DNA of 38,004 bases from Terriglobia bacterium (GTDB taxonomy: Bacteria > Acidobacteriota > Terriglobia > Terriglobales > Acidobacteriaceae), in contig JAIQGK010000030.1 in NCBI GenBank assembly GCA_020072645.1, positions 1 through 38,004 of the forward strand, given 5' to 3'. The position numbers and the translations under genes are program-made. The notes beneath the pieces are model-generated. The model ran no database searches and was not told the origin of the DNA. It saw nothing but the letters and a program-made list of their open reading frames with translations. Positions 32,003-37,875 of the stretch are shown here, piece by piece (within the stretch, counting starts at the first letter, position 1; each line of letters starts with the position of its first letter).

Positions 32003-33343
32003 TTGACTAACACGTCCCACGACGAGAGCGCACCGCGCGGCGTACCTTCCGCGGACGACTCCGAATTGGTCATTCAAAGCGCCTCTCTGCAGCGCGTGAT
32101 GAAGCTTGCGGAAAAAGTGGCTCGCCATCCCGCTGCCGTGCTCATTGTGGGTGAGACCGGCTCGGGCAAAGAGATGGTTGCGCGCACCATCCACACGCAT
32201 TCCCTGCGCTGCAACCAGCCGCTGGTGGATGTTAACTGCGCCGCCATCCCGGAAAACCTGGTTGAGAGCGAACTTTTTGGATATGAAAAAGGGGCCTTTA
32301 GCGGCGCGGATGCCATGAAGCCCGGCTTGTTCGAGATGGCCAACAAGGGAACTCTCTTCCTCGATGAAATCGGCGACTTGGATTTAAAGATCCAGGTAAA
32401 GCTCTTGCGCGTGCTCGATGGCGTGCCTTACTACCGCCTGGGCGGCAACAAGAAAGTCAGCGTTGATGTGCGTGTCGTGGCGGCCACCAACCAGCATCTT
32501 GAAGACCTGGTAAAAGCCGGACGCTTCCGCAGCGATCTCTATCACCGGCTGGCCCAGTTCAAACTTGAAGTTCCGCCGCTGCGTGAGCGTCCGGAAGACA
32601 TAGTGGGAATTGCCGAACAGGTGTTACACCAGCACTATCCGGAATCCCGCTTCAGCCGCGACGCGGTGGACGCGCTCACCAGCTATGCGTGGCCGGGCAA
32701 CGTGCGCGAACTCAAAAACGTGGTCTTTGGGGCCGTCTTGCAGGCCCACGACGCACAATCTGAAATCACCGCTGCAGACCTGCGTTTCCCTGATTCAGTC
32801 AGTTCACGCCGCCGCCCTGCCCCCACAGATTCCGATCTGGATCAGGTGGAAAAACGCGCCATCCTGCATGCCCTGGAAGATAGCGGTGGCAACCAGGGAA
32901 GGGCCGCGGAAGCCCTTGGCATTTCACGGCGCACATTGATTCGCAAGCTCAAGATTTACCGCGAGGCTGGCCTGGAAGATTCTTCCGGCAGCCTGAGCCT
33001 TAGCCAGCAGCGTTATTACCGTGCTCAACTCGAGCTCCCTATCGAAATGAAATATGCGAGCGAACAATTTGACGCCGTCTTGCTTAACATCAGCGCCGGC
33101 GGAGCTGGAATTCGTACGGAGAAGCCGCTGAAATCCGGTGCTCCGGTAGCGCTCGTCTTCACGATTCCCGGCAGCAACAATCAAGTTCCAGTAGAACTTC
33201 CCGGACGCATTACCTGGGCCAACAAAAGCGGGCAATACGGGATCCAGTTCAGTGAAATCCCTCCATCGCTTCGCACCAGCCTGCAACGCTGGCTGCGTAC
33301 TGAGATGAAGAAGGATGGCTGGGACGTGGAGAGCGGCGAGTAG
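32003..33343 (+). CDS. Sigma-54-dependent activator with Fis HTH and C-terminal PilZ domain
   Basis: 446 residues. There is no receiver or GAF domain; the AAA+ domain starts almost at once. Walker A GETGSGKE is at 50-57, the sigma-54 contact loop is GAFSGA at 97-102 (Ser in place of the usual Thr of GAFTGA), and Walker B LFLDEIGD is at 118-125. The arginine-finger region (GRFRSDLYHRL) and a Fis-type HTH near 285-325 (NQGRAAEALGISRRTLIRKL) follow. Residues ~345-435 form a PilZ domain: RYYRAQLELPIEMKY supplies basic residues and LNISAGGAGI matches the (D/N)xSxxG loop for cyclic di-GMP. The start is TTG with a poor ribosome-binding site. It probably links c-di-GMP to sigma-54 transcription. Confidence 0.92.
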   Translation: MTNTSHDESAPRGVPSADDSELVIQSASLQRVMKLAEKVARHPAAVLIVGETGSGKEMVARTIHTHSLRCNQPLVDVNCAAIPENLVESELFGYEKGAFSGADAMKPGLFEMANKGTLFLDEIGDLDLKIQVKLLRVLDGVPYYRLGGNKKVSVDVRVVAATNQHLEDLVKAGRFRSDLYHRLAQFKLEVPPLRERPEDIVGIAEQVLHQHYPESRFSRDAVDALTSYAWPGNVRELKNVVFGAVLQAHDAQSEITAADLRFPDSVSSRRRPAPTDSDLDQVEKRAILHALEDSGGNQGRAAEALGISRRTLIRKLKIYREAGLEDSSGSLSLSQQRYYRAQLELPIEMKYASEQFDAVLLNISAGGAGIRTEKPLKSGAPVALVFTIPGSNNQVPVELPGRITWANKSGQYGIQFSEIPPSLRTSLQRWLRTEMKKDGWDVESGE

Positions 33344-33360
33344 CGTTGGCGCGGTGTGGG

Positions 33361-33451
33361 GTGAAAGAGCGGCCCTTCAGGGCCGCGAAAAGGATCAAGA
33401 AAAAGGTCTTTCCTTGCGCCGCAGGCCCGCGCGCAGCAGAGCGGAGCGCGC
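33361..33451 (+). repeat. Left copy of GC-hairpin repeat flanking the ubiquitin-like island
   Basis: GCGGCCC-TTCA-GGGCCGC (33369-33386) forms a perfect 7-bp hairpin, followed by GAAAAGG and, about 25 bp later, CCTTGCGCCGCAGGCCC, then an AGCGGAGCGCG block. The same modules occur in reverse orientation at 37456-37536. The hairpin could also terminate transcription between the convergent sigma-54 activator and E1 genes. Confidence 0.8.
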
Positions 33452-33462
33452 TGATTCTGGAT

Positions 33463-34308
33463 TTAAGGTTTGCTGTAGGAGCCAGCGTTTTGAAATTGAA
33501 AAAATGGATCACCCACATTATGCAGGCCTTCAAAATGGGTGCAATGCCCACTCAGATACTTGAGTTTGTTGCTTGGCGTGAGTGTTTGTGCATCGCCGTC
33601 ATACTCCAGCAAGATCGGAAATTTGATTTCCTTTTCCCACGGCGTAACCAATTTCATAAACATGCCCACAGCCGCTGAAGCAAGCAGCCCGTTAGGCCAC
33701 ACAACCTGCGGCTTTCCGCCCGCGGCATTGTAGCGTTGAGCTTCCTGCTGCAACCGTTGATCCGTGATAATGCCCACACAGCGGAGGCATGAGCCACCAG
33801 GCAGTGAAATAGCTACTTGGCCACCAATAGAAAAGGCATCGCCAACAGGATGCACATCCATTCCCAGGTCGATATAAGGAATCAAATGCCGGCGGGCAAG
33901 CGTCTCTAACTGCTCGCGCTCGGTAAAGCTGTCCACACAACCGAAAATAATGTCGCACTCCTTCAGTTCGTCAGCGTGGGCCTGCCACTTGTCTTTGTAA
34001 CTTACAACATGTATCCAGGGATTGACCCCGCGGGTTAAGCGTTCAGCGACAAAAACTTTGGAGCGTTCAACTGCCACGTCTTCTTCAGTGGCTCCGATCA
34101 GGCGATTGAGGTTGGTCTCTTCAACTTTGTCAGGATCAAAAATCGCGGCATTTCCAACGCCTACGTGAGCAAGCTGCTGGTTTATGTGAGACCCTCCACC
34201 GCCTAGCCCAACAATAGCAGCATGGCACGCCTCCAAAATGTCTGCGCTTTCTGGGCCCAAAAAACTTTGCCGGTCCAGCCGTATAAGCCGAGATAGCTTG
34301 TCGCTCAT
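33463..34308 (-). CDS. ThiF/MoeB/E1-like ubiquitin-like-protein activating enzyme
   Basis: 281 residues. E1-like enzymes adenylate the C-terminus of a ubiquitin-like protein with ATP and pass it on. The Rossmann motif is IVGLGGGGSH (34-40), the nucleotide-binding acidic strand D58-P-D60, then VEETNLNR with the catalytic Arg69. Lys84 follows in ERSKVF and the metal-binding Asp126 in GCVDSFTER. CLRC (C174, C177) and C256/H258 could be the structural zinc site or include a transfer cysteine. It is last in the operon; its ATG overlaps the JAMM gene stop (ATGA). There is no E2 domain fused, unlike CBASS Cap2. The 3' end lies 12 bp from the flanking repeat. Confidence 0.93.
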   Translation of the reverse strand: MSDKLSRLIRLDRQSFLGPESADILEACHAAIVGLGGGGSHINQQLAHVGVGNAAIFDPDKVEETNLNRLIGATEEDVAVERSKVFVAERLTRGVNPWIHVVSYKDKWQAHADELKECDIIFGCVDSFTEREQLETLARRHLIPYIDLGMDVHPVGDAFSIGGQVAISLPGGSCLRCVGIITDQRLQQEAQRYNAAGGKPQVVWPNGLLASAAVGMFMKLVTPWEKEIKFPILLEYDGDAQTLTPSNKLKYLSGHCTHFEGLHNVGDPFFQFQNAGSYSKP

Positions 34309-34802
34309 AGGCGCCTCATTGGAACCCCGACGGAGATGAACTCGGAAATGTCAGTTGGATCTACCTTGTCTGGCATCCAGCATTTTCCAAAAGCGGAGTC
34401 TTGGCTTAGTACAATTGCGCCATGAGGTAAAGCGGGCTGCACGTTCCAAAAATCCGGCACAAAGCGGGCTGTTTCCCGACTATCAATGCTGCTAAACCCT
34501 GGTTTTCCGCGGTGTTCATGGATATGCACATGGAACATTGACGCGCCCTGGTTGTATGCGGCCTCCAAGGCTTTGCGAATTGCATGCGATCCCATGGTTG
34601 CACCGGCTTTGGGGTCATTGAGGTAATCTTCATCCGCGACGGCATGGAATCCTTGTGCGAGTATAAGCAGACCGTCCTCCGGAAGATGCGACGGCCGGCA
34701 CAAGAAAAACCCCACACGTTCGGCGGCAAAAACGTGACGGCGTCTGAGATTCGCCATTGCGGATTTCAACAGCTCCCGTTGGATTTTGAACTTGATTTTC
34801 AT
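34305..34802 (-). CDS. JAB/JAMM (Mov34/MPN-type) isopeptidase
   Basis: 165 residues from the ATG at 34802. This start overlaps the upstream E2-like stop as ATGA, so the longer 258-residue reading from 35081 is rejected because its first 93 residues are in the wrong frame of the E2-like gene. The JAMM zinc site is complete: Glu28 (FAAERVGFF), H93-x-H95 (HVHIHEH), then S104-x2-D107 (SSID). JAMM enzymes remove ubiquitin-like proteins from targets or trim their precursors. In this operon it most likely matures the 88-residue ubiquitin-like protein or reverses its conjugation. Confidence 0.9.
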   Translation of the reverse strand: MKIKFKIQRELLKSAMANLRRRHVFAAERVGFFLCRPSHLPEDGLLILAQGFHAVADEDYLNDPKAGATMGSHAIRKALEAAYNQGASMFHVHIHEHRGKPGFSSIDSRETARFVPDFWNVQPALPHGAIVLSQDSAFGKCWMPDKVDPTDISEFISVGVPMRRL

Positions 34803-35119
34803 CGCAGCGGCCTCAAATGTGCCGCAAGCATCTCCGCAGGTCGAAGGTTGGCCGAAACGCCCTGCCATGACCAGCTGTACCAGTTTTTGCCGAGAATATA
34901 GTGAGTAGACCAGTTCGCGCCCCGCCCTGGTATCACCTGTGGCAGAAATAGCCGTGTGGAGTAGCCAGAATGCTCTTGAATGCAAAGGAGGGCAGGTAGC
35001 TGAGTCCCCCCAGCCACCTGCACACAATTCAGGTAAATATAAGTTCTTCCACCTTCCGGCATCTCTTGAGCGCCGCCGCACAACTCCGCCAGTTCCCGCA
35101 GATGTTCAGCAGCAACCAT
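34799..35119 (-). CDS. Probable prokaryotic E2-like conjugating protein
   Basis: 106 residues between the ubiquitin-like and JAMM genes, overlapping both by 1-4 nt. Coding is strongly supported by this arrangement. The pattern GGRTYIYLNCVQV, LPALLCIQEHSGYSTRLFLPQ, NWSTHYILGKNWYSWSW, then RPAEMLAAHLR fits, from memory, the small prokaryotic E2-like families (Prok-E2_E type) found beside multi-ubiquitin genes. A canonical eukaryotic HPN and flanking active site are absent; C32, C46 and C14 are the candidate nucleophiles. The E2 role is inferred mainly from context and weak similarity, and the protein could instead be an E1/E2 adaptor. Confidence 0.62.
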   Translation of the reverse strand: MVAAEHLRELAELCGGAQEMPEGGRTYIYLNCVQVAGGTQLPALLCIQEHSGYSTRLFLPQVIPGRGANWSTHYILGKNWYSWSWQGVSANLRPAEMLAAHLRPLR

Positions 35120-35385
35120 TAAGATGAGCTCCCGGTCCGGACGTGGCTCACAAATTTCTCATGCTTCTCAATGGTGATTTTGGCGTTGTCATCGAGCGGT
35201 TTGAATTCGCCATGGATGATCTCGTCCAATTCCCTAGAGGCGTCCACCCCGACAAGTCGTTTGAAGTCAGAAACGGTGTAGGTGCCAGCTTGAACCTTCA
35301 GTTCTTTTCCATCCACTGTGACTGTCACCTGTGCCGGATGGCTGGACACAGGACCATGATCATCGTGCGGCATTTCGTGTAACAT
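35119..35385 (-). CDS. Ubiquitin-like protein (multiubiquitin/beta-grasp family)
   Basis: 88 residues, preceded by AGAGGG 7 nt before the ATG; its TAA shares an A with the next ATG (TAATG). Residues ~18-82 follow a beta-grasp layout: strand pair VTVTVDGKELKVQAG, helix TVSDFKRLVG, acidic helix and strand DASRELDEII, then HGEFKPLDDNAKITIEKHEKFVSH. The C-terminus is RTGSSS, a single Gly (G85) followed by three Ser rather than a terminal GG. Maturation by the JAMM enzyme could expose G85, which is inference. It is first in the operon, as expected for the most abundant product. Confidence 0.78.
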   Translation of the reverse strand: MLHEMPHDDHGPVSSHPAQVTVTVDGKELKVQAGTYTVSDFKRLVGVDASRELDEIIHGEFKPLDDNAKITIEKHEKFVSHVRTGSSS

Positions 35386-35544
35386 TTAGAAACCCTCTTG
35401 GTCGTAGATTTTTCGCCACGCAATTACCTATGCTCATCCTGATGGCGAGTTGGACAAAAAAAGTGTAGTTTTTTCCCAAAATCGTGTCCGAAAACCTATT
35501 CAATTGAGCAGAGGTAATCAGGAGCTAGCGCTTGAGGATCTAAA
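35386..35544. promoter_or_regulatory. Divergent promoter region between the two island operons
   Basis: This 159-bp A/T-rich stretch separates two operons reading outward. TTGGACA (35450-35456) and TGTCCGA (35485-35491) form an imperfect inverted pair 28 nt apart, placed symmetrically between the two starts. On the minus strand, TACACT upstream of the ubiquitin-like gene could be a -10 element. Both operons could be controlled from this one site. Confidence 0.45.
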
Positions 35545-36204
35545 ATGGCAGACGATCCTGGCTACCATCGAGCCAAGGGGCCGACCGATGAACGGATTGC
35601 AACCCCGGAAGAAGTCTGGAGCGCCGTACAGTCCTTGACTGAGGCGGACAGCGCCAGGCTGAAAGCCGTAGCGGAGGCGTTGGCCTTTCGCATACGATCT
35701 TACGTCTGGGGAACCGGCGGGGCAGATTTGCTTCAGGAGGCAGTGATTTCCCTCCTGCAAGGAAACAGGAAGTGGCGTCCCTCACGGGTGGACCTTGTGA
35801 GGCTGCTTATAGGTGCAATGCGGAGTATTGCAAGCAACTGGAAACGGAAAGGGGCCCTTGAACAGCCGCCCCGACTTGCCTCAGATCTCATTACGGTAGA
35901 TGAACAGGGAGAGGAGGTCCCGACAGCCGTGGATACCGCGGCTGATAGGTGCCCGGATCCCGAAGAGGCATTACTGCAAAGTGAGGTTACTTCGAGAACG
36001 CAGCAACTAGTCTTGGAGATTGAGGAAATGTTCCCGGAGGATGTTGTCGCCTCACTGGTCATAGTGGGTCTGAAGACCGGCATGAAGGGGCCAGAGATTA
36101 TGGCCAAGCTGGAGATCAGCAGAAAAGAATTTGATGCTGCCGTAAAAAAGATCCGCCGAACAACAAAAGCACGCTGGCGGAAAGGAATACCTTATGTCCA
36201 ATGA
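35545..36204 (+). CDS. Sigma-70-like (ECF-related) regulatory protein
   Basis: 219 residues. The centre has a region-2-like stretch (GADLLQEAVISLLQG, then LVRLLIGAMRSIASNWKRK) and the C-terminus a possible region-4 helix pair (MKGPEIMAKLEISRKEFDAAVKKIRRTTKARWRKG). This resembles a small sigma factor or sigma-like transcription activator that has lost the canonical -10-recognition sequence. The ATG has a GAGG upstream. Its last 11 nt overlap the next gene. Its divergent position against the ubiquitin-like operon makes it the likely activator of one or both operons, though this is inferred. Confidence 0.65.
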   Translation: MADDPGYHRAKGPTDERIATPEEVWSAVQSLTEADSARLKAVAEALAFRIRSYVWGTGGADLLQEAVISLLQGNRKWRPSRVDLVRLLIGAMRSIASNWKRKGALEQPPRLASDLITVDEQGEEVPTAVDTAADRCPDPEEALLQSEVTSRTQQLVLEIEEMFPEDVVASLVIVGLKTGMKGPEIMAKLEISRKEFDAAVKKIRRTTKARWRKGIPYVQ

Positions 36205-36634
36205 TCGTCGGGATCCGAGGACGGAACTCGATGCCATCCTTGAAGCATTGGTTGATTCTATAGAGACAGCAACCGATGAAGAGGTCATTGAAGAATCACA
36301 GGCTTCCGGGGAAAACCTCAAAGCGGTCGCTCAAGAGGTAAAAACTTCTCTGTTAGCCGGGATCAAGCGTTTTGAGCAGCGCAAACTAAACGCAGCACGG
36401 CAAACTTACAAGTCGCGCACCGGAGCCCAACGGAAGCAATTCGTGTTCTCACCCACGCCGGAGGGCCGGCGCAGTCAGTTCCTTGCGATTCTGGCGTCTA
36501 AGCCGCAAATGCAAGCAATGCTGACCGTGCAACATCGCGACTTTGAGAGCCTCACAGATGATGATATCCAAAGCGCTTTGGAAGAGCTCGGCGAGCTTGG
36601 TGTGTTTGACAACGAAGGGAAGCAATCGGAATGA
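36194..36634 (+). CDS. Small acidic protein of the sigma/ImmA module
   Basis: 146 residues, no recognised named domain. The N-terminal ~45 residues are acidic and helical (DAILEALVDSIETATDEEVIEESQA), the middle is basic (KRFEQRKLNAARQTYKSRTGAQRKQ), and the C-terminus is acidic again (ESLTDDDIQSALEELGELG). It overlaps both neighbours (11 nt and ATGA), so it is surely co-translated with them. By analogy with repressor/anti-repressor pairs it could be the anti-sigma or tether that the ImmA protease cuts; this is a guess from position. Confidence 0.7.
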   Translation: MSNDRRDPRTELDAILEALVDSIETATDEEVIEESQASGENLKAVAQEVKTSLLAGIKRFEQRKLNAARQTYKSRTGAQRKQFVFSPTPEGRRSQFLAILASKPQMQAMLTVQHRDFESLTDDDIQSALEELGELGVFDNEGKQSE

Positions 36635-37455
36635 CTGTGTTGCCTCAGACTGCGGCACAAATCCTTGCGGACCTAGGCATCCGCGAACCAGTAGATCTAG
36701 ATATAGAGGCTATAGCTGAGTATTGCGGGGCAACAATCAGGTACAAACCACTGCATGGTTGCGAGGCACGAATCCTTGGCTACAAGGAGCGCGCGATAAT
36801 TACCGTGAATTCGCTTGCGACACGGGAGCGTCAGCGGTTTTCTGCAGGCCACGAGCTTGGGCATTGGATGCGTGATCGCGGCCAGGTCGCCTTTCAATGT
36901 GAAGATAAGAGCTTTACGCGAGAATGGTCAGCAAATAATCCTGAAACCCGGGCTAACAGGTTCTCAAGCGATCTGCTACTTCCGGCGCCGATGTTTAGGC
37001 CGCTGGCGCGTGGCCTACCAATAACTTTTAACACAGTGAGCGATCTCGCATCCCAATTTCAGATGAGTCTCACTGCTACCGCAATCCGGCTCGTCGAGCA
37101 CGGCTGGATGCCGTCAATGCTCGTCTGCAACACTGATGAAGGCAAAGCGTGGTTCGTGGCTAACTCTGAAGTCAAAGGGAAGTTCTGGCCTGTTGAAAGA
37201 CCCGGGAAGAATACGGTTGCGTATGACCTTCAATTGGGTACTAGCCGCGAAAGTCCTCAAGATGTTAGATGCAGCGAGTGGATCAATCACCCGAGGGCTG
37301 ATCGTTATTGGATTAAAGAGGATTCAATCATGTTGCGAGGACGAACTATCCTCTCACTGCTTTGGTGGGAAGACGAGCAACAAATCTTGGATCAAGAGGA
37401 ATATGAGGAGCGTCGCTTTTCAGAGCGTTCAGATCGGCGCAGAGACTGGGAGTGA
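36631..37455 (+). CDS. ImmA/IrrE-family zinc metallopeptidase
   Basis: 274 residues. HExxH is clear at H74-E-L-G-H78 (FSAGHELGHWM), and the downstream Glu ligand lies in NPETRANRFSSDLLLPAP, the usual E-x-x-A-N-x-F-x-x-x-L-L-x-P pattern. Helices resembling the IrrE linker follow, then a ~110-residue C-terminal domain rich in Trp and charged residues, which is longer than in plain ImmA. ImmA cleaves a repressor to induce ICEBs1, and IrrE cleaves DdrO. Here the natural substrate is one of the two co-translated partners. The repeat copy starts 1 bp after the stop codon. Confidence 0.93.
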   Translation: MTVLPQTAAQILADLGIREPVDLDIEAIAEYCGATIRYKPLHGCEARILGYKERAIITVNSLATRERQRFSAGHELGHWMRDRGQVAFQCEDKSFTREWSANNPETRANRFSSDLLLPAPMFRPLARGLPITFNTVSDLASQFQMSLTATAIRLVEHGWMPSMLVCNTDEGKAWFVANSEVKGKFWPVERPGKNTVAYDLQLGTSRESPQDVRCSEWINHPRADRYWIKEDSIMLRGRTILSLLWWEDEQQILDQEEYEERRFSERSDRRRDWE

Positions 37456-37536
37456 CGCGCTCCGCTCTCGGGCCTGCGGCGCAAGGTAGAGTTTCTCTAA
37501 CCATCTTTTTCGCGGCCCTGAAGGGCCGCTCTTCCA
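37456..37536 (-). repeat. Right copy of the GC-hairpin repeat, inverted
   Basis: Reading the minus strand from 37536, the modules are AGCGGCCC-TTCA-GGGCCGC (hairpin arms at 37512-37518 and 37523-37529), GAAAAAG, a divergent 20-bp spacer, CCTTGCGCCGCAGGCCCG and AGAGCGGAGCGCG. They match the left copy closely and in the same order. It directly follows the ImmA stop and may also terminate that operon. Confidence 0.8.
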
Positions 37537-37875
37537 CCAGTCAGCACTATTTTCGTCTTGACATGAAGGCGAACAAATGGTAAATTTAGAAATTCGCTCC
37601 AGAGCGGAAAAGTTGTGCAGTGGACGGTCTTTGACAACCAAAGCAGTTAGCGGGAAACCGGTACTTGGTTCTTGGTATTTAGTACTTGGTAAAGCGTTGC
37701 AACCCTCTGCCGACCGGACAGTTGAAATGAGAAAAATGGCTGAAAATTGGGCCGGATTTGACCGCTGAAAAACGGGAACGAAGGCTTTCGACCGTTCGGT
37801 CACCGCTCGGTCGAATGGCACTTTGGTCTTTGTTTTCAGCAAAAGTGCTATGGGGGGTGGGTCTCTGGCTGGGTA

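Follow-up and report, generated by a model that had tools for sequence, protein, structure and literature searches.

An active question is how costly immune systems are held silent and later turned on. A WYL-family activator, SiwR, is reportedly already in print. In the Bil system the genes bilABCD encode a ubiquitin-like protein (Ubl), an E2, a deubiquitinase (DUB) and an E1. The available text of one report describes CalpL/CalpT/CalpS as a three-part CRISPR immune system: CalpL, a Lon-SAVED protease that cA4 from type III CRISPR activates, a sigma inhibitor, and a sigma factor whose release by proteolysis is established (PMC12751052). The available part of a second report states that CapH+CapP, CapW and CapK+CapS work via DNA-binding repressors and control adjacent pathways, and that CapW or CapH+CapP were found with 219 of 544 Bub operons (PMC13373217).

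The locus described here lies in a 38,004-nt stretch of DNA (the window), in which seven open reading frames were found between 33463 and 37455, forming two divergent operons. The preliminary description had proposed these seven genes in two divergent operons with overlapping stops and starts, an organization borne out by the reading frames and the junction sequences: the minus-strand genes, in the order Ubl, E2-like, JAMM and E1, meet at TAATG, ATGA and ATGA, while on the plus strand a sigma-like gene (SIG) overlaps a gene for an acidic protein (ACID) by 11 nt, and ACID joins an ImmA-type protease gene (ImmA) at ATGA. This arrangement is not a product of chance, since relatives of all four Ubl-operon genes occur together in five loci (L027, L028, L033, L011 and L012) and 75 of the 80 genome loci fetched carry the entire plus-strand trio. 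An inverted repeat flanking the genes (33360–33434 and 37464–37538) was considered as the ends of a mobile element and ruled out: it is a dispersed repeat with 18 matches in the same genome, both window copies counted and many of the others partial.

The minus-strand operon looks like a diverged, split Bub-like pathway, judging from sequence comparison. The E1-like adenylating enzyme (33463–34308, minus strand; BubD position) matches Pfam ThiF at 4.5e-31 and, in the alignment, carries a CxxC motif and a conserved C-terminal cysteine; its profile found Citrobacter BubCD (9ea4, 3.5e-30) as the best of 34 PDB matches listed at E ≤1e-12, with MoeB at 1.3e-24. The E1 reading frame of L027 is short, at 224 aa. 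The E2-like protein (34799–35119, minus strand; BubB position) was identified by profile–profile comparison: its profile A6, of eight rows, two of them from the JAB–E1-fusion loci L015 and L042, aligns with the Prok-E2_E/BubB-type profile A7 (hhalign probability 95.8, P 7.8e-09). Profile A7 matches solved BubB at 1.1e-36; A6 itself has no PDB match, and the E2-like alignment contains no invariant cysteine. The JAMM/JAB isopeptidase-like protein (34305–34802, minus strand; BubC position) is assigned from its catalytic residues, E29, H92, H94, H96 and D108 being kept in all six aligned sequences; its best PDB match, the JAB part of BubCD, is not significant (E 0.11). Finally, the ubiquitin-like protein (35119–35385, minus strand), at what we take to be the BubA position, matches the L011 Ubl by phmmer at 7.8e-16, and that relative in turn matches Multi_ubiq (PF14452) at 3.3e-08. 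This family is matched by two of six aligned Ubl members, the window protein itself being unmatched; a PF14452 search of the window's own genome gave no match, but neither did its controls, which leaves that search uninformative. The Ubl C-terminus reads ...SHVRTGSSS, with its G and both final S residues kept in 6/6 aligned sequences. Profile searches thus recognized E1 (ThiF) and the ImmA protein (Peptidase_M78) directly, whereas the E2-like, JAMM and Ubl proteins have no significant Pfam match of their own and were identified via relatives. The earlier reading of a Ubl-conjugation operon is supported as Bub-like by the best match of E1 to BubCD and the alignment of the E2 profile with the BubB type.

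Turning to the plus strand, SIG (35545–36204) is assigned as an ECF-type sigma factor by profile and fold. A profile of 64 aligned members matches solved ECF sigma factors (best 4.8e-06), and profile and fold searches alike place SIG among proteins with sigma regions 2 and 4; the window protein alone scored 0.0015 against the ECF model, below the model cut-off. Its AlphaFold2 model has a mean pLDDT of 91, and the 50 of 139 Foldseek matches listed are all, by name, to sigma factors or to transcription complexes; of these 50, the top match alone lies below 0.001, and whole-chain TM-scores reach at most 0.39. ImmA (36631–37455, plus strand) is an ImmA/IrrE-type metallopeptidase of the CapP kind, matching PADLOC capP at 5.1e-58, Pfam Peptidase_M78 at 7.8e-14 and, as its best PDB match, CapP 7t5t at 9.3e-09. 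The HExxH motif is intact in the window and present in 63/63 relatives scanned. Between the two lies ACID (36194–36634, plus strand), a small, all-helical protein conserved in this position and proposed to be an anti-sigma factor and protease substrate. The preliminary description had called it acidic, in agreement with its pI of 4.8 (median 4.85 among 64 aligned members, range 4.1–9.3). Its model, of seven helices, has a mean pLDDT of 86 and a pTM of 0.49. No fold match at E ≤0.001, no sequence or fold match to any anti-sigma factor and no cleavage site were found for ACID, and the one PDB sequence match that it has below 0.001 covers a single helix of a designed protein.

The position of ACID bears on which protein the protease would cut. 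ImmA might cleave SIG itself, for shut-off or precursor processing, with ACID as an accessory protein or chaperone; the N-terminus and linker of SIG are variable, and a linker lacking structure could readily be cut. We regard this as quite unlikely, because the presence of a distinct, conserved gene between those of SIG and ImmA, mostly overlapping its neighbors, better fits a sigma/anti-sigma/protease set. ACID overlaps SIG in 58/63 loci and ImmA in 47/63, counts biased toward overlap by the choice of starts nearest the upstream stop.

Both divergent operons carry the same putative promoter element. In the window, one copy (35427–35456, minus strand; TGTCC-N18-GCATAGG) points toward the Ubl operon and the other (35485–35512, plus strand; TGTCC-N18-GCAGA, one mismatch to GCATA) toward SIG. 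A back-to-back pair of TGTCC-N18/19-GCATA elements lies between the operons in 51/75 loci and is strongly associated with the trio. The pair occurs in 47 of 67 loci compared with 12 of 1340 mononucleotide shuffles, in a set where the motif had first been spotted by eye; eight trio loci omitted from that count (L014, L015, L016, L025, L028, L038, L076 and L104) were counted separately under the same rule and have the pair in 4/8, so that no pair was found under the rule in 24/75 (20/67 plus 4/8). In a plasmid test set, the same rule recovered the pair in 8/10 loci, of which seven beat 500/500 shuffles and one (L148) is weak, 8/500 shuffles being as good; the other two plasmids, L142 and L146, have two sites 152 and 178 bases apart, beyond the rule. 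Among loci with a window-type Ubl operon, L027 and L028 have no pair under the rule, although L027 has two sites with a spacing of 17. L011 and L012, whose related Ubl operons stand with CapH/CapP-like genes instead of the trio, have no element pair within 600 bases around the Ubl start. The window's own genome contains four other exact motif matches, all inside predicted ORFs.

The two arms of a locus co-vary. They share spacing in 44/47 loci, compared with 26.3 expected, and the −10 core in 25/47, compared with 14.0 expected, values reached by 0/2000 permutations in each case. The spacers separating the boxes likewise resemble each other more within a locus, from arm to arm (45%), than across loci (31%), and an inverted repeat could therefore account for some of the co-variation. 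For SIG residues varying together with the −10 variant, relatedness confounds the test.

These elements also bear on a repressor switch like CapH+CapP, in which ACID, or ACID with SIG, would repress the divergent promoters and ImmA would destroy the repressor. The protease is indeed CapP-like, helix-turn-helix (HTH) plus CapP-like pairs adjoin a related Ubl operon in L011 and L012, and one of three relatives' ACIDs scanned (L106) gives a weak match to the capH model (0.0054) in its C-terminal half and so might point to a repressor-type partner. As a marker, the capH model was dropped, being a generic HTH model with matches in 182/199 genomes. However, SIG matches sigma factors and not repressors, searches of the window ACID gave no HTH family, and neither window SIG nor window ACID matched any PADLOC model at E ≤1, capH included. 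Moreover, the two boxes of an element are spaced by 18/19, whereas the distance separating the elements ranges between 1 and 49 (scanned up to 60), a pattern to be expected from a pair of promoters and not from a single operator. On this evidence we hold a repressor switch to be unlikely.

Nine of 84 loci were removed as near-identical (ImmA >95%; L047, L048, L049, L068, L079, L085, L094, L096 and L099), leaving 75 non-redundant loci. A seed-class partner gene lies upstream in 49 of these, always divergent (26 Ubl conjugation, 16 CBASS/Pycsar, 7 other), and downstream in 1/75; the seed classes were chosen from upstream genes, with singleton classes counting themselves, and these seeds also served for the downstream control. 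The remaining 26/75 have no recognized partner, some owing to contig ends. BilD-like genes adjoin trio relatives in L013 (by PADLOC) and in L030, L032 and L036 (by similarity to L013), and a DUB–E1 fusion occurs in L014, L015 and L042, where the window has separate genes. On plasmids, the trio is complete in 10/10 loci, these being the records opened of 26 with a match, with duplicates and unlisted records left out. In Cereibacter sphaeroides 2.4.1, a plasmid-borne trio is divergent from nucleotidyltransferase and SAVED genes and has an exact element pair, which makes this species a tractable host for laboratory work. PADLOC matched 8/10 representatives of upstream clusters at E ≤1e-5, two of them as TnsB-like only, and 5/10 further upstream picks; among ten downstream controls (nine of the ten further-pick loci, plus L066 replacing L064, which has no downstream ORF), three matched, as restriction-modification methylases.

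The defence-like genes in 3/10 downstream controls indicate that defence islands are a frequent setting for trio loci, and the trio might be a general passenger of such islands, its neighbors not being its targets. We consider this very improbable: seed-class genes are upstream and divergent in 49/75 loci against 1/75 downstream, even if seeds were picked upstream, and both divergent sides bear the same co-varying element. The trio instead resembles a switch that can be reused to turn on bacterial immunity, since its relatives likewise stand back-to-back with CBASS, Pycsar, Bil and other defence genes. The preliminary description had staked its pairing of the operons on their occurring together in other genomes. 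They do, a window-type Ubl operon accompanying the trio in L027, L028 and L033, and the trio is conserved and repeatedly divergent from Ubl-conjugation operons. What did not hold is an obligate seven-gene block: the pairing is modular, as related Ubl operons also occur with CapH/CapP-like genes (L011, L012) and the trio also stands beside CBASS, Pycsar, Bil-like and other genes.

Together, the seven genes probably form an inducible immune or stress locus in which ACID restrains SIG, ImmA cuts ACID, and SIG fires both operons. The minus-strand operon would encode a Bub-like protein-conjugation pathway of Ubl, E2-like, JAMM and E1 proteins, and the plus-strand operon its controller. SIG would be a dedicated ECF-type sigma factor recognizing TGTCC-N18/19-GCATA, and ACID a cytosolic inhibitor keeping SIG off RNA polymerase. 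ImmA, as a CapP-like protease, would cut ACID once triggered, probably by single-stranded DNA from infection or DNA damage, by analogy with CapP and PprI. Freed SIG could then act at both back-to-back promoters, turning on the conjugation operon and, in positive feedback, its own operon; the function would presumably be directed against phage. Gene order, protein families, modular pairing with many immune systems, and paired elements with their co-variation are observed features of these loci. We further favor, by a narrower balance, the broader view that such trios are widespread mobile immune controllers, in which a CapP-type protease senses DNA damage or phage DNA and frees an ECF sigma factor to fire a promoter pair, so that unrelated systems (Bub, Bil, CBASS, Pycsar, AbiE-like, restriction) could all be attached to a single standard promoter.

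Of the two halves of the locus, the sigma/ImmA one holds more interest. From the trio one would predict that a sigma factor exerts positive control through an exact promoter code, a prediction that can be tested in a standard reporter strain, and such a code would allow partner systems to be found by promoter, including the neighbors of the 26/75 loci without a recognized partner. No report of an ImmA version of the protease/sigma switch was found among the open papers, a set to which the primary CapH/CapP and Bub papers do not belong.

Among known systems, Bub is the closest to the minus-strand operon: the window E1 is nearest to Citrobacter BubCD, the E2-like protein aligns with the BubB type, and JAMM and Ubl genes share the operon. 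DUB and E1 are fused in Citrobacter BubCD, a fusion that may not be defining, whereas they are separate in the window, where Ubl and the E2-like protein have diverged beyond Pfam detection; DUF6527, which adjoins the E1 gene in several relatives, is absent from the window's four operon genes. Bil comprises the same four roles, and trio relatives adjoin BilD-like genes, but in the PDB the window E1 has BubCD as its best match, and the 25 of 30 PADLOC matches listed for this E1 do not include BilD. As far as the available text of PMC13373217 describes them, CapH+CapP, CapW and CapK+CapS are, like the trio, small controller genes near the promoter of diverse immune operons. CapH+CapP has the protease in common with the window, where the HTH repressor CapH is absent; its replacement by a sigma factor and an acidic partner implies activation rather than derepression. 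In CalpL/CalpT/CalpS, as presented in the available text of PMC12751052, a protease, a sigma inhibitor and a sigma factor are combined as in the trio, ACID being a proposed inhibitor; the partner there is CRISPR, whereas trio partners are Bub-like, Bil-like, CBASS, Pycsar and other systems. Among the PDB matches listed for SIG or ACID, no chain bears the name CalpT or CalpS, the PDB copy searched being one that may contain none. Measured against that available account, the trio follows a known logic, here with a Peptidase_M78/CapP-type protease instead of Lon-SAVED.

The seven open reading frames and the overlaps between them that were claimed in the preliminary description are present in the window as described. 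They are minus-strand genes for a ubiquitin-like protein (Ubl), an E2-like protein, a JAMM enzyme and an E1 (the Ubl operon), divergent from a plus-strand trio encoding an ECF-type sigma factor (SIG), a small acidic protein (ACID) and a CapP-family protease (ImmA). Pfam directly recognised ImmA and E1, the latter as ThiF. ImmA matched nearly the whole PADLOC capP model (5.1e-58); among solved structures, CapP matched it best (7t5t; 9.3e-09). SIG as a single sequence matched the sigma70-ECF model weakly (0.0015), and a 64-row SIG profile matched three solved ECF sigma factors (4.8e-06 to 1.5e-05). The fold matches of the SIG model (pLDDT 91) are sigma factors (best 2.0e-04), with low whole-chain TM-scores because the two domains are differently set. 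Family-model scans of the window proteins gave no credible match for ACID, Ubl, E2 or JAMM taken singly; ACID is predicted to be all-helical (pLDDT 86, pTM 0.49), and a fold search with this predicted model returned no match at E ≤ 0.001. The seven-gene block is flanked by two copies, in inverted orientation and one on each side (33360–33434 and 37464–37538), of a dispersed repeat that has 18 matches in the genome, many partial and the two window copies included; the contig ends 466 bases beyond the right copy. The adjoining gene (32003–33343, plus strand) encodes a sigma-54 activator with a Fis-type HTH and a C-terminal PilZ domain, whose tie to the block is not obvious.

We class the Ubl operon of the window as a Bub variant: Bub-like, diverged and split. 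Relatives of all four of its proteins are grouped in loci L027, L028, L033, L011 and L012, the last two originating from an E2 search that matched 3 of 150 genomes of the order, the window's own among them. Against the PDB, the E1 profile matched Citrobacter BubCD best (3.5e-30), followed by MoeB (1.3e-24). The E2 profile itself had no PDB match; in profile–profile comparison it aligned with Prok-E2_E (probability 95.8), a profile that matches solved BubB (1.1e-36). The E2-like alignment lacks an invariant cysteine. JAMM residues are kept in all six aligned sequences, and likeness to the JAB part of BubCD was not significant (0.11). In the alignment Ubl ends in G-x-S-S rather than GG, and the JAMM enzyme would cut it after the G. 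Several Ubl operons have a DUF6527 gene next to E1 (L018:9512–10075, L103:4321–4665). The operon divergent from the sigma trio often encodes small proteins close to its start: DUF2188, DUF3892 and a small family that has no Pfam match and looks Cas2/SinR-like; these loci are L034, L039, L041, L055, L061, L080, L082, L088, L089 and L106 (C1), L015, L075, L080 and L082 (C5), and L066, L077, L081 and L100 (C3).

ACID occurs in 7 of 297 genomes of the phylum, its own included, and lies between SIG and ImmA in all seven loci. An ACID profile search of 396 genomes matched nine: the same seven, G381, which carries a diverged trio (L025), and G352, whose weak, stop-containing match has no trio around it. 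An ImmA profile scan of the genome collection yielded 314 relatives; among the best 80, near-duplicates included, 75 have all three trio genes, L104 has SIG and ImmA, and L046, L073, L092 and L098 have ImmA only. Judged by record titles, Acidobacteria, Nitrospira, Rokubacteria, Bdellovibrionales, a myxobacterium, and Alpha-, Beta- and Gammaproteobacteria are among the hosts. Relatives of the ImmA of L095 were found in 26 plasmid records and in no phage records searched; the trio is present in all ten plasmid loci examined from the 26, and the SIG of one of these (L143) bears a sigma-70 family annotation.

Reading of the intergenic regions revealed TGTCC and GCATA on each strand, facing outward; in the window these promoter-like elements lie at 35427–35456 (minus) and 35485–35512 (plus). 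Across 67 loci, sites with at most one mismatch and a spacing of 18 or 19 numbered 39 in the forward and 43 in the reverse direction; the mononucleotide-shuffle background is about 2 per spacing, both strands together. Under a divergent-pair rule (up to two mismatches per arm, 0–60 bases between arms), a pair occurs in 47/67 loci versus 12/1340 shuffles, with arms 1–49 bases apart. The two arms of a locus share the same spacing in 44/47 cases (26.3 expected) and the same −10 core in 25/47 (14.0 expected), an agreement attained by 0/2000 permutations. Spacer identity is higher within loci (45% vs 31%), so an inverted repeat may contribute. Eight loci outside this count bring the total to 51/75, with pairs in L014, L015, L076 and L104 and none under the rule in L016, L025, L028 and L038. 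By the same rule, 8 of 10 plasmid loci have a pair, seven unmatched by 500 shuffles and one (L148) equalled by 8/500; in L142 and L146 the sites lie 152 and 178 bases apart, respectively. Elsewhere in the window's own genome, four further exact TGTCC-N17–20-GCATAGG sites each fall inside a predicted ORF.

Turning to the partner genes, 49 of 75 non-redundant loci have a seed-class gene within 7 kb upstream of SIG, on the opposite strand every time, and one has such a gene downstream, a count biased to the upstream side because the seeds (15 classes, assigned from PADLOC and Pfam scans of representatives) were taken from upstream genes. Upstream partners comprise 26 Ubl-conjugation systems (Bub-like, BilD-like, DUF6791-ThiF, Prok-E2_A/ThiF/JAB), 16 CBASS or Pycsar systems and seven others (AbiEii, MBL/LmuA-like, PADLOC beta, MmeI-type methylase and three TnsB-like). 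A seedless comparison was weaker, with PADLOC matches (E ≤ 1e-4) in 5/10 upstream picks versus 3/10 downstream controls, the latter all restriction-modification methylases. Such defence-like downstream neighbours place the loci in defence islands, so the signal that is specific lies in the divergent position together with the shared element. Examples of partners on plasmids are nucleotidyltransferase and SAVED genes (Cereibacter sphaeroides 2.4.1 pDE) and multiubiquitin-E2-ThiF (Paracoccus marcusii pMARC5; Celeribacter indicus pP73C, where an IS256 transposase gene separates E2 from ThiF). At L011 and L012, with no element pair around the Ubl start, the related Ubl operon has an HTH and CapP-like pair in place of the sigma trio; the regulatory module is thus exchangeable. 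The TnsB/Mu-transposase-like divergent partners (L063:3676–5679, L075:3209–5371, L067) may belong to a transposon or to a sigma-controlled defence system of an unrecognised kind. The divergent partners L051:3905–5662 and L100:4200–5270 had no PADLOC or Pfam match at the thresholds used, and the L055 partner clusters as an L051 homologue; all three are candidate new immune systems.

Because sigma factor, putative inhibitor and protease share one coupled operon opposite an immune operon, and both sides carry the same promoter-like element, SIG/ACID/ImmA is best read as a switch in which the protease would release the sigma factor, the steps from protease to promoter being predicted. The published precedent is CalpL/CalpT/CalpS (PMC12751052), in which the Lon protease, once activated by cA4, cleaves the anti-sigma factor CalpT and frees CalpS. 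Kinship with the CapP family points to ssDNA as the possible trigger of ImmA: CapP reportedly becomes active when it binds ssDNA and cleaves CapH (PMC13373217), and PprI is reported to sense DNA damage through ssDNA binding (PMC10904395). According to PMC13373217, CapW or CapH plus CapP accompanies 219 of the 544 Bub operons, which means that a CapP protease next to Bub has already been published. No sigma-linked form was found in the accessible text of that paper, and searches of open-licence papers showed no report of it; its novelty is provisional. Our verdict is that the regulator is a predicted new form of the sigma/anti-sigma/protease immune switch, differing from the known one in its ImmA/CapP protease and in its attachment to many immune systems as partners.
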